Positions 1,537-7,199 of a DNA stretch of 8,567 nt are shown here, piece by piece (within the stretch, counting starts at the first letter, position 1; each line of letters begins with the position of its first letter). The notes under the pieces are model-generated. The model made no database searches. It was given only the letters and a program-made list of their open reading frames with translations, and had not been told where the DNA came from. Made by a program: the position numbers and the translations under genes. Source of the stretch: Pseudomonadota bacterium (GTDB lineage: Bacteria; Pseudomonadota; Gammaproteobacteria; Burkholderiales; Thiobacillaceae); NCBI GenBank assembly GCA_021791235.1, contig JAJYXA010000500.1:1-8567 (forward strand). The letters run 5' to 3'.

Positions 1537-1564
1537 TTGACACATTAATGAGAATCGTTATTAT
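1537..1564 (+). promoter_or_regulatory. Sigma-70-type promoter of the hemP-feoB operon
   Basis: A perfect -35 hexamer TTGACA (1537-1542) is followed after 16 bases by TATTAT (1559-1564), five of six matches to the -10 consensus. The expected transcription start is near 1571, giving a leader of about 23 bases to the hemP ATG. This stretch is AT-rich in an otherwise GC-rich window, as expected of a real control region. Spacing and strength are read from sequence; activity is inferred. Confidence 0.8.
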
Positions 1565-1568
1565 TCTC
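1544..1568. promoter_or_regulatory. Fur box overlapping the -10 region
   Basis: Bases 1547-1561 match the core of the Fur consensus (AATGATAATCATTAT) at 13 of 15 positions. Bases 1550-1568 form an inverted repeat GAGAAT-7-ATTCTC. The site covers the -10 hexamer, so Fe(II)-Fur binding should block RNA polymerase and open the operon only when iron is scarce. Its position immediately upstream of hemP, a classic Fur target, and a downstream feoAB supports the reading. I see no second copy elsewhere in the window. Confidence 0.85.
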
Positions 1569-1594
1569 CTTACATAAATTTAAGCGCGTTTTAC

Positions 1595-1813
1595 ATGAAG
1601 ACCATGCTCCTCGATCCCATGCACCCCGGCAGTCCCGCACTAGCGCCCGCCGCCACCCGACTTCAAGCCGGGGCCGGACAGCAGCCCCCTTCGCAGAAGG
1701 GCATTCCAGCCGAACTTTTGTTCCAGGGGAGCCAGGAAATCCTGATTAATCATCACGGTGAAATCTACCGGCTGCGCGTCACCCGAAACAGCAAGCTGAT
1801 TCTGACCAAGTAA
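1595..1813 (+). CDS. hemP: Hemin uptake protein HemP/HmuP family
   Basis: This is a small (72-residue) cytoplasmic protein of the HemP/HmuP family. Members are encoded with haem-uptake genes, and in some bacteria they act as activators of the haem receptor gene. The conserved core is residues 37-72: IPAELLFQG, then [15 protein letters not shown], ending in [10 protein letters not shown], all characteristic. The first 35 residues are Pro/Ala-rich and variable, as usual. ATG at 1595 is used, but ATG codons at 1604 and 1619 are possible alternatives; none has a clear Shine-Dalgarno sequence. It lies 23 bases behind the predicted transcription start of a Fur-box promoter and is the first gene of the operon. 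Oddly, no TonB-dependent haem receptor or haem ABC transporter is nearby. Family assignment is firm; its role here is open. Confidence 0.9.
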
Positions 1814-4526: not shown

Positions 4527-5050
4527 GCAAGGCCGTCATCCGCCTCGGTCCACGCCACAAGAAATGGCTCTATGCCGGCTTCGCGCTGCTCTGGCTTAGC
4601 GGCGCCCTGTGGCTGGCGTTTCATTATTTCTTGCGAATGGAAGGCGAATTCGGCCCCGCAGCGCACCCGCTCGAAGCCTGGTGGCTGCGCCTGCACGGGC
4701 TGATGGCCATGCTGGCGCTCGCGCTGGCCGGCTCGCTCGCGCCCAATCACATCCGGCTCGCCTGGGACCGCCGCAGGAACCACCGCAGCGGCCTGCCGAT
4801 GCTCGCGCTCACCGTCTGGCTCGCCGGCACCGGCTACGCACTGTATTATTTCTCATCCGACGACAACGCCGCCTGGCTGCCGCTGCTGCACTGGATCGCC
4901 GGGCTCGCGCTGCCGCTCCTGCTCGGGCTGCACATCCGGCTGGGACGCCGCCGCGCGCTGCCCCGCGCCAATCAGCCGCAGCACCCGCAGCAGCGTCATG
5001 CCGTCGCCCCGTCGTACAATCCGCCAGCCCGCATAAAAGCCAGCTCATGA
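4523..5050 (+). CDS. Four-helix inner-membrane protein with conserved-looking His, possible cytochrome b-like electron carrier
   Basis: A 175-residue integral membrane protein. Four hydrophobic helices are seen: about 15-37, 53-73, 91-110 and 117-140. Histidines lie in or near them: H34 (TM1), H58 and H76 (start and end of TM2), H123 and H137 (TM4). The H123-H137 pair has 13 residues between, a spacing used for two haems stacked in one helix in b-type cytochromes, so a haem b role is plausible. PepSY-like or DUF4405-like proteins from flavin-transfer clusters are the closest comparison from memory; I cannot name the family firmly. The C-terminal tail (145-175) is polar, Pro/Gln/His-rich. The gene starts on an ATGA overlap with apbE and ends on an ATGA overlap with feoA. 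Electron transfer from quinol to the periplasmic FMN protein is an inference. Confidence 0.75.
   Translation: MSKAVIRLGPRHKKWLYAGFALLWLSGALWLAFHYFLRMEGEFGPAAHPLEAWWLRLHGLMAMLALALAGSLAPNHIRLAWDRRRNHRSGLPMLALTVWLAGTGYALYYFSSDDNAAWLPLLHWIAGLALPLLLGLHIRLGRRRALPRANQPQHPQQRHAVAPSYNPPARIKASS
5015..5020 (+). promoter_or_regulatory. Possible -10 element (TACAAT) upstream of feoA
   Basis: TACAAT stands 26 bases before the feoA ATG, inside the last codons of the preceding gene, followed by a locally AT-richer GCATAAAAGCC. No good -35 hexamer lies at 16-18 bases upstream (the window reads AGCGTC). It may be a weak internal promoter giving feoAB some independent expression, or chance. Confidence 0.25.
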
Positions 5051-5316
5051 CTCTCACCCTCGACCAGCTTCCCGACCGCCAGGCCTGTACCGTCACCCAG
5101 GTCGCGCCCCCCGCCAACGCGCCGGAATGGCACGAGTGGCTGGAGGAAATCGGCTTCCTCCCCGGCGAGCAGGTGATGGTGATGACGCGCGCCCTGCCGG
5201 GGGGCGACCCGCTGGTGGTGCGGGTGGGCTCTTCCACTTTCGCGCTGCGGCGCGTCGAGGCGGCCTGCGTGCAGGTGGCGACCGAGCACAGGGCAGCTCA
5301 CGGAGCAGCAGCATGA
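5047..5316 (+). CDS. feoA: Ferrous iron transport protein FeoA
   Basis: FeoA is a small cytoplasmic SH3-like protein that works with FeoB in Fe(II) uptake. This one has 89 residues, within the usual 75-90. The core is readable: EWLEEIGFLPGEQVMVMTR (30-48, helix-turn followed by the first strands), GGDPLVVRVGSSTFALRRVEA (52-72) and VQV. The RVGSSTFALRR segment is the family's typical end strand. The ATG at 5047 overlaps the preceding stop by four bases, and its own stop overlaps the feoB start by four bases (ATGA), so the pair is translationally coupled. The tail after residue 80 is Ala/His-rich and not conserved. Confidence 0.93.
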   Translation: MTLTLDQLPDRQACTVTQVAPPANAPEWHEWLEEIGFLPGEQVMVMTRALPGGDPLVVRVGSSTFALRRVEAACVQVATEHRAAHGAAA

Positions 5317-7199
5317 AGCAGGCCATCGTCCATGTGCATCGCGGCGGGCCGCTTCTCGCGCTGGTAGGCAACCCCAATTGCGGCAAGACCGCACTGTTCA
5401 ACCGCCTCACCGGCAGTCACCAGAAGGTCGCCAACTACGCCGGCGTGACGGTCGAGCGCAAAGAAGGCAAGCTCGTCACCCCTGCCGGCAAGAATTTGCG
5501 CGTGCTCGACCTGCCCGGCACCTACAGCCTGAATCCGCGCTCGCCCGACGAGAAGGTGACGTGCGACGTGCTCACCGGCCATGCCGAAGGCGAGAAGCGT
5601 CCCGATCTGGTGGTGTGCGTGGTCGACGCGACCAACCTGCGGCGCAATCTGCGGCTGGTACTGGCGGTCAAACGCCTGGGCCTGCCCTGCGTGGTGGCGC
5701 TCAACATGACCGATCTCGCCGCGCAGAGCGGCATCCGGGTCGACGGCGCCGCCTTGTCGGAGGCACTCGGCCTGCCCGTCGTCAACACCGTTGCGGTGAA
5801 TGCCGACGGTGCCGCCGCGCTGCTCACCCTGCTCGACCGGCCGGACACCTGGAAACGGACAGCGCCCATCGGCAATCGCGCGTCCGCTGCCGACACGATC
5901 GAAGCCGATCATGAGGTAGTGCGCCGGATCCTGCAGGGCATGGGCCTGGACAAGGCGATTCCGCACCTCGCCAGCGATCGCATCGACCGCGTAGTGCTGC
6001 ATCCGCTGGCCGGCCCGCCGCTGCTGGCGGTGGTCCTGTTCCTGGTTTTCCAGGCGGTGTTCGCCTGGGCCGCGACGCCGATGAGCTGGATCGAAACCGC
6101 CACCGAGTGGCTGGGCAACGGCGTCGCCGGCTTGTTGCCGAACGGCTGGCTGCAAAGCCTCGTGGTCGACGGCGTGATCGCCGGTGCCGGCGGCGTGGTC
6201 GTGTTCCTGCCGCAGATCATCATCCTGTTCTTCTTCATCCTGGTACTGGAGGAATCCGGCTACCTGCCCCGCGCGGCCTTCCTGCTCGACCGCCTGATGG
6301 GCGGCGTCGGCCTGTCCGGGCGCTCGTTCATCCCACTACTGTCGAGCTTCGCCTGCGCGATCCCCGGCATCATGGCCGCACGCACAATCACCAACACGCG
6401 CGACCGCCTGGTCACCATCATGATCGCCCCGATGATGACCTGCTCGGCGCGACTGCCGGTGTATGCGCTGCTTATCGGCGCCTTCATACCGCAGCGCAAG
6501 ATCTGGGGCGGGCTGGAGTTGCAGGGTCTGGTGCTGTTCTGCCTGTATGTAGCCGGCATCGTCGGTGCACTGATCGTCGCCTGGCTGCTCAAGCGTTTCA
6601 CCGCGCGCAACCTCATGCACCCGCTGATGATGGAACTGCCGATCTATCACTTGCCCCGCCTGCGCAACATCGCCATCGGCCTGTGGCAGCGGGTGATGAT
6701 CTTCATGAAGCGGGTCGGCGGCATCATTCTCGCGCTCACCGTCCTGCTGTGGTTTCTCGCCAGCTTTCCCGCACCGCCCGTGGGCGCGACCGGCGCACCG
6801 ATCGAGTATAGCTTCGCCGGCATGCTGGGACGCGCGCTCGCCGTCGTCTTCGAGCCCATCGGCTTCAACTGGCAAATCAGCATCTCGCTGGTACCCGGCC
6901 TGGCCGCACGCGAAGTCGTAGTGAGCGCGCTCGGCACCGTCTATGCACTGTCGGCCACCGGCAACGACACCGCAGGCGCCCTCAGCCCGCTCATCGCCCA
7001 TAGCTGGAGCCTGGCCACCGGCTTGGCGCTGCTGGCCTGGTTCGTCTTCGCGCCGCAGTGCTTGGCCACGCTCGCCACCGTCAAGCGCGAAACCGGCGGC
7101 TGGACCATGCCGCTGATCATGGCCGGATACCTGTTCGCACTGGCCTATCTGGCCTCGTTCATCACCTACCGGCTGGCGGTCGCGGCAGGCTGGGGCTAA
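5313..7199 (+). CDS. feoB: Ferrous iron transporter FeoB
   Basis: FeoB is the inner-membrane Fe(II) importer with an N-terminal G domain. The ATG at 5313 (ATGA overlap with feoA) gives 628 residues. That is shorter than E. coli FeoB (773) but within the range of the family. G motifs: G1 GNPNCGKT (19-26), G2 T46 in GVTVE, G3 DLPG (66-69), G4 NMTD (131-134). A helical spacer domain follows to about 225, and membrane helices start near 229. The first gate motif is around PLLSSFACAIPG with C348; a second cysteine, C377, lies in MMTCSARLPVY. LAAREVVVSALG (from 530) is the second conserved block. No FeoC-like or Cys-rich C-terminal extension is present. The open frame reaching back to 5127 is a shadow of feoA. 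FeoB closes the operon; no clear terminator follows. Confidence 0.96.
   Translation: MKQAIVHVHRGGPLLALVGNPNCGKTALFNRLTGSHQKVANYAGVTVERKEGKLVTPAGKNLRVLDLPGTYSLNPRSPDEKVTCDVLTGHAEGEKRPDLVVCVVDATNLRRNLRLVLAVKRLGLPCVVALNMTDLAAQSGIRVDGAALSEALGLPVVNTVAVNADGAAALLTLLDRPDTWKRTAPIGNRASAADTIEADHEVVRRILQGMGLDKAIPHLASDRIDRVVLHPLAGPPLLAVVLFLVFQAVFAWAATPMSWIETATEWLGNGVAGLLPNGWLQSLVVDGVIAGAGGVVVFLPQIIILFFFILVLEESGYLPRAAFLLDRLMGGVGLSGRSFIPLLSSFACAIPGIMAARTITNTRDRLVTIMIAPMMTCSARLPVYALLIGAFIPQRKIWGGLELQGLVLFCLYVAGIVGALIVAWLLKRFTARNLMHPLMMELPIYHLPRLRNIAIGLWQRVMIFMKRVGGIILALTVLLWFLASFPAPPVGATGAPIEYSFAGMLGRALAVVFEPIGFNWQISISLVPGLAAREVVVSALGTVYALSATGNDTAGALSPLIAHSWSLATGLALLAWFVFAPQCLATLATVKRETGGWTMPLIMAGYLFALAYLASFITYRLAVAAGWG

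Follow-up and report, generated by a model that had tools for sequence, protein, structure and literature searches.

To our knowledge, the route by which Fe(III) is reduced ahead of the ferrous iron transporter FeoB is unclear for most bacteria. The question is raised by an 8,567-nucleotide stretch of DNA from a bacterium of the Thiobacillaceae (GenBank contig JAJYXA010000500.1; hereafter the window, meaning the whole stretch), in which a Fur-like box is followed by hemP, a small open reading frame (ORF), a gene of the family DUF6662, a gene for a flavin mononucleotide (FMN) protein of the FMN_bind family, apbE, a gene for a four-helix membrane protein (hereafter the helix protein), feoA and feoB. 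Comparison across genomes places the conserved unit elsewhere than in a flavin trio joined to feoAB: the unit is DUF6662–FMN_bind–ApbE–helix protein, referred to below as the module. A Fur-controlled envelope electron path, in which the helix protein and the FMN protein would reduce ferric iron for uptake, is the reading that we hold to be probable, with some reserve.

Relatives of the locus were gathered in two ways. In the first, 31 FMN proteins were aligned and used for a scan with one genome per species, which returned 419 relatives. The best 80 of the 419 were analysed, as 80 loci in 79 genomes, given that L041 and L059 are two loci titled as one isolate (by its title a member of the Gammaproteobacteria, with two module copies). 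These FMN-anchored loci depart little from the order DUF6662, FMN_bind, ApbE, helix protein: 77 contain ApbE, 76 the helix protein and 75 DUF6662. The record titles of the relatives include Proteobacteria, Verrucomicrobia, Omnitrophota and Bdellovibrionales; L023 is Sulfuriferula multivorans, and an FMN protein of 78% identity is listed for Thiobacillus denitrificans ATCC 25259. At L030 DUF6662 lies on the opposite strand, and at L040 two consecutive DUF6662 pieces were found. The original prediction had treated FMN_bind, ApbE and the helix protein as a unit, and these three are indeed conserved together; the core, however, also includes DUF6662.

In the second, DUF6662 served as the anchor, so that selection would not depend on the FMN motif. 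A PF20367 search of 299 genomes of the phylum gave five matches, the centre genome included, with FMN_bind and ApbE adjoining in all five. An alignment of DUF6662 proteins was run against two order samples, with matches in 20 of 300 genomes in one and in 8 of 197 in the other; FMN_bind and ApbE adjoin DUF6662 in each of the 28 (10 of which were already in the first set, and one of which, G580, has a weak ApbE match at E 2e-8). Among 19 fresh loci from outside the first set, the helix protein was found in 18, in its usual place in 17 and divergent in one. DUF6662 without the flavin pair was not seen in the DUF6662-anchored samples. At one locus, L123, the helix protein was not found and the ApbE match is only weak.

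The layout of the window agrees with the original prediction, which had described a Fur-box promoter ahead of eight tightly packed genes: all are present and co-directional at the positions below. Two points are additions to it, namely the assignment of the barrel to Pfam DUF6662 and the lack of a signal peptide in ApbE.

1537–1564, forward strand: sigma-70-like promoter, TTGACA-16-TATTAT (11/12 matches)
1544–1568, forward strand: Fur-like box, two overlapping 19-mers starting at 1544 and 1550 (14/19 each)
1595–1813, forward strand: hemP (PF10636, 1.8e-16)
1853–2059, forward strand: small two-cysteine protein (no family above cut-off)
2135–3082, forward strand: DUF6662, predicted 12-strand outer-membrane barrel (PF20367, 3.2e-154)
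3094–3639, forward strand: FMN_bind flavoprotein, probably exported, motif DIQNISGAT with Thr159 (PF04205, 4.1e-11)
3636–4526, forward strand: ApbE FMN transferase without leader peptide (PF02424, 7.2e-41)
4523–5050, forward strand: four-helix membrane protein, predicted di-heme cytochrome b (His58, His76, His123, His137)
5047–5316, forward strand: FeoA (PF04023, 3.7e-14)
5313–7199, forward strand: FeoB ferrous iron transporter (FeoB_N PF02421, 7.3e-54; TIGR00437, 503 bits against a cut-off of 315.65)

The gaps from hemP to FMN_bind measure 39, 75 and 11 bp and are followed by four 4-bp overlaps, so that the five genes from FMN_bind to feoB in all likelihood form a single translational unit. 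The Feo system is represented by both FeoA and a FeoB with GTPase and gate domains. The small ORF gave a weak Metal_resist match (0.0054), below cut-off, and a two-cysteine protein of this kind follows hemP in 5 of the 80 loci (L001, L002, L008, L010 and L014).

Control of the module by iron was examined through Fur-like sites, scored against a 19-bp consensus. In the window, the box overlaps the promoter-like site (combined span 1537–1568). Chance alone, estimated from 50 first-order Markov copies of the window, gives 0.7 sites of 12/19, 0.2 of 13/19 and none of 14. The promoter-like site is the sole one of its kind found in the window; 1.1 would be expected by chance, and thus the match is weak on its own. 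Upstream of DUF6662 in the related loci, a first test (250-bp window, stricter boxes, poorly guessed start codons) found boxes in 7 of 70 loci against 0.18 expected. The start estimate, window and threshold were then changed to 150 bp with cut-offs of 13/19 and 14/19, under which boxes of at least 13/19 were present in 15 of 65 loci, against a mean of 2.0 and a maximum of 8 in Markov copies (first-order copies, not exact shuffles) and a mean of 1.1 and a maximum of 5 in random windows from the same 65 loci. At 14/19, 9 of the 65 have a box, against 0.35 expected. The same cut-offs and window were carried unchanged to the fresh 19 loci, where 10 have a box (mean 1.1, maximum 4), and 4 have one at 14/19 (0.23 expected, maximum 3). 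These counts are uncorrected for kinship, and the boxes of L117, L118 and L124 are nearly identical. Furthermore, a box lies upstream of hemP in 24 of 28 cases (mean 1.5, maximum 4; kinship again uncorrected); the stretch scored here was 250 bp long, its downstream end set 150 bp ahead of the hemP stop.

The recurrence of Fur-like boxes at distant module copies bears out the predicted iron control and suggests that it reaches beyond the loci linked to FeoB; in the window, Fur would repress the operon. Of the 15 box-positive loci, 14 lack any match to hemP, FeoB, Bfd or Bfr, and boxes without such neighbours occur in the fresh set too, which also suits an explanation in which iron is the signal and not the substrate. 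Here Fur would turn on a flavin carrier as a stand-in for iron-rich cytochromes in a different envelope reduction, a saving raised in the discussion of Meheust et al. (2021; PMC8238504), and FeoB, Bfr and hemP would be co-regulated neighbours only. However, the module itself has an apparent heme protein and three FeoB types have been recruited beside it, and we regard such iron-sparing as unlikely.

Linkage to FeoB is a recurrent feature of the FMN-anchored loci. FeoB lies inside the examined flanks of 21 of the 80 loci (as a co-directional gene downstream in 11 and upstream in 8; in the other 2 it lies upstream on the opposite strand) and FeoA in 9, where chance proximity within 8 kb would account for about 0.3 of 79 genomes by a rough sum. 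Three FeoB types adjoin the module, that of the window and those of L010 and L028, with identities between types of 25–36% over alignments of about 300 or more residues; some pairs aligned in the GTPase part only (about 155–235 residues, 36–49% identity). The FeoA–FeoB arrangement is found again at L062, titled Rhizobacter, whose FeoB is 60% identical to that of the window and whose FMN protein stands apart from the Thiobacillus-like group in the FMN tree. At least four changes of FeoB state are needed on this tree, a soft minimum given that the tree is quick and weakly supported (13 of 78 inner branches starred) and that the flank was too short to score FeoB in 20 of 81 rows. The original prediction had made feoAB part of the system and expected a neighbourhood search to find the trio beside it; as regards FeoB this holds for the 21 loci and fails in the fresh DUF6662-anchored loci, none of which (0/19) has FeoB nearby, so that feoAB lies outside the conserved core.

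As a marker of FeoB in whole genomes, FeoB_N (PF02421) was rejected, since every one of the 14 control genomes gives a match and so do many other GTPases; FeoB_C (PF07664) was chosen for this reason. FeoB_C is present in 18 of 20 module genomes and in 143 of 280 others (p 0.0007, kinship uncorrected, seemingly within one order sample).

Other iron genes are found beside the module as well: hemP in 22 of the 80 loci, Bfd in 16, Bfr in 16, TonB in 9 and TonB-dependent receptors in 4. At L127 the module adjoins genes for DUF1513, imelysin and a di-haem oxidoreductase, a set that we take to be an iron-uptake cluster. ExbB, ExbD and TonB adjoin it at L042, and ExbB and TonB at L057. Together with the TonB and receptor counts, the last two loci would fit a pathway in which iron is released by reduction from siderophores or heme imported by TonB receptors, with FeoB as a late add-on in the Thiobacillus group. 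PepSY-like proteins offer a precedent (PMC8238504). Such release is quite unlikely to be the function of the module, since a receptor gene was not found in the window and receptors are near only the 4 loci.

The membrane component of the module was characterised by alignment and modelling. The structure model of the helix protein has four long helices, with a pair of histidines on each of helices 2 and 4. His58, His76 and His123 are kept in 95 of 95 aligned rows and His137 in 94. This near-invariance, which agrees with the predicted suitability of the protein for electron transfer, suggests a di-heme cytochrome b, and the protein would accordingly be expected to bind heme. A Foldseek search gave no match at E 0.001 or better, and the only hits of a Pfam scan at E up to 1, namely Ni_hydr_CYTB, DUF4405 and Peptidase_U4, fell short of their cut-offs. 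For Ni_hydr_CYTB (cytochrome b561), the window protein scores 18.2 bits against a cut-off of 30.1, and the L040 relative 30.2. The nearest relatives in kind are the DUF4405 and FezC cytochromes, which are associated with flavinylation and ferrosomes and for two of which heme B has been demonstrated (mSystems 2024, PMC11334425). As described in the available part of that paper, their four central histidines are likewise the most conserved residues and apbE likewise adjoins. However, DUF4405 has six helices in place of the four modelled here, and the helix protein reaches only 15.2 bits against the DUF4405 cut-off of 26.7.

The FMN protein carries an [ST]GA[ST] motif and its gene adjoins that of ApbE in the window. 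The patterns DEVYGKHE and NISGATLSC served in the scan itself, which biases the count of motif conservation in the FMN-anchored set. The DUF6662-anchored set was selected independently of both patterns, and Thr159 is conserved there in 19 of 19 relatives. A script written for the purpose found a hydrophobic stretch in 98 of 100 leaders and a loose AxA-like site in 98 of 100; in keeping with the predicted export, the leader-like N-termini indicate that the FMN protein, whose flavinylation motif is retained, is probably exported.

The flavin transferase presents the opposite picture. In 96 aligned rows of module ApbE, the protein starts close before the RAxPxLGT core, and a 14-residue mean hydropathy above 1.5 ahead of the core was found only in L042, L080 and L125 among the scorable rows (start codons guessed; L039 and L047 uninformative because their N-termini are broken or cut). 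Eighteen module genomes gave 46 ApbE matches, 30 of which were examined: a strongly hydrophobic leader is present in 20 of 22 non-module ApbEs and in 0 of 8 of the module type, and at least one ApbE with a leader occurs in 15 of the 18 genomes. The module ApbE thus has no secretion signal, though its substrate appears to be exported. Most ApbEs are secreted, according to the available part of a 2025 review (PMC12052999), which also describes a cytosolic ApbE of Klebsiella pneumoniae without signal peptide; the substrate of that enzyme is a soluble fumarate reductase, in contrast to the leader-bearing substrate in the window. Either the flavoprotein is flavinylated before export or it is flavinylated by another, secreted ApbE of the genome, and twin-arginine-like cases weakly favour the former.

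DUF6662 was modelled as a 12-strand barrel with a fold near FapF and the COG4313 channels, to which its identity is 9–11%. Its score for Phenol_MetA_deg (PF13557), which we take to be the Pfam counterpart of COG4313, is 17.8 bits and does not reach the cut-off of 22. A literature search on DUF6662 found no paper (subscription papers and supplementary tables were outside its scope). Judging from the model, the barrel may act as the outer-membrane channel of the pathway. The predicted 12 strands are shared with the COG4313-type channels, and these are thought to carry hydrophobic molecules, not iron (PMC4493636); the word iron is absent from the main text of that structure paper. By analogy, the barrel might import a hydrophobic or redox-active small molecule for the flavoprotein to reduce, the iron linkage being regulatory only, which seems to us very unlikely.

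Known flavinylated systems provide the closest comparison. Meheust et al. (2021) tied flavinylation to iron via PepSY, MsrQ, DsbD, Nqr-like and P19 clusters, some of which are Fur-controlled (PMC8238504). The module shares with these systems an ApbE, an SGA[TS] flavoprotein with a leader, a membrane electron carrier and iron-transport neighbours, in addition to Fur-like boxes. It differs in that the helix protein matches no Pfam family defining their five membrane classes, and in its DUF6662 barrel and leaderless ApbE, which set it apart from their iron-linked systems as far as the available parts of the paper go. The iron partners named there are VIT1, P19/FTR1 and TonB receptors, and 'feo' occurs once in the main text, in a reference title. 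The gene set is rated as belonging with the known flavinylated electron-transfer systems, as a variant form. An FMN-binding domain is also present in SifE, from a bifidobacterial iron screen (PMC5449479, available part). Literature searches found no paper on this gene set recognisable from titles and abstract starts, with subscription papers and supplementary tables outside their scope.

In the electron path that we favour, iron shortage would lift Fur repression and turn the operon on. The helix protein, with two b hemes stacked across the inner membrane, would take electrons from the quinol pool and pass them to the exported FMN protein, to which ApbE would attach flavin at Thr159. The flavoprotein would then reduce periplasmic ferric iron, whether free, chelated or siderophore-bound; DUF6662 would be the matching outer-membrane channel, and ferrous iron would enter via FeoB where feoB is present and otherwise via another importer. 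The direction of the electrons, quinol as donor and iron as substrate are inferred from the sequence comparisons. The proposal of ferric reduction for uptake is plausible and has been strengthened, its centre having moved from feoAB to the four-gene core.

Several observations weigh against this electron path. The model of the helix protein is of middling confidence (predicted local distance difference test, pLDDT, 75), and ion channels rank level with its best fold matches; in 61 of 100 FMN proteins the first eight residues of the leader have no net positive charge, which is unusual for a signal peptide. The presumed hydrophobic cargo of the COG4313 channels counts here as well. No box of at least 13/19 lies upstream of DUF6662 in 50 of the 65 loci, many of which have hemP or another gene in front. 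Among 20 neighbour ORFs at distant loci, 3 are of iron-transport types, 1 is a porin, and the rest are unrelated or unassigned. FeoB_C has no match in 23 of the 79 module genomes, some of which are perhaps incomplete (at least one, L032, has part of a FeoB at the end of a contig); given this and the 0/19 fresh loci, FeoB is a repeated partner and not a component. Of 14 genomes without a FeoB_C match, 13 contain Nramp, a count that lacks a control set and was given no weight. Nine Spartobacteria-like Verrucomicrobia genomes (L037–L040, L044, L045, L048, L051 and L056) have no FeoB_C match, and the six Spartobacteria-like loci that were scored have no 13/19 box within 150 bp upstream of DUF6662, so iron is perhaps not the substrate everywhere. 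The genomes of seven other Verrucomicrobia-type or Opitutia-like loci (L047, L049, L058, L063, L066, L069 and L076) do have FeoB_C.

Around the operon, the window opens with the last part of a NagZ-like gene (identified by eye), followed by a cation diffusion facilitator exporter ahead of hemP, and continues after feoB with a uracil-DNA-glycosylase-superfamily gene, a tautomerase and the start of a uvrC-like gene (the last by eye). In the close relatives L001 and L002, Bfd–Bfr genes and a Fur-like box lie between feoB and the uracil-DNA-glycosylase gene; at that spot in the window (7199–7239) just 39 bp separate feoB from the next gene. Near the module, a Porin_O_P gene (phosphate-selective-porin-like; e.g., L014:6844–8124) occurs in 20 of the 80 loci, downstream in 18 of the 20, and a cobalamin adenosyltransferase gene recurs in 7.

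At its widest, the module may be an undescribed Fur-controlled machine for reductive iron assimilation that acts across both membranes in several phyla, built from a DUF6662 channel, a flavoprotein and a minimal four-helix di-heme cytochrome, with a leaderless ApbE attaching the flavin in the cytoplasm ahead of export, which would invert the customary sequence of export first and flavinylation in the periplasm second; taken whole, this is tentative and rather doubtful. The module poses a cofactor puzzle, in that the flavoprotein is apparently exported and its flavin transferase apparently cytoplasmic. It would also give the barrel family DUF6662 its first functional setting, and would be a compact, testable candidate for Fe(III) reduction ahead of FeoB, with a new membrane electron carrier.

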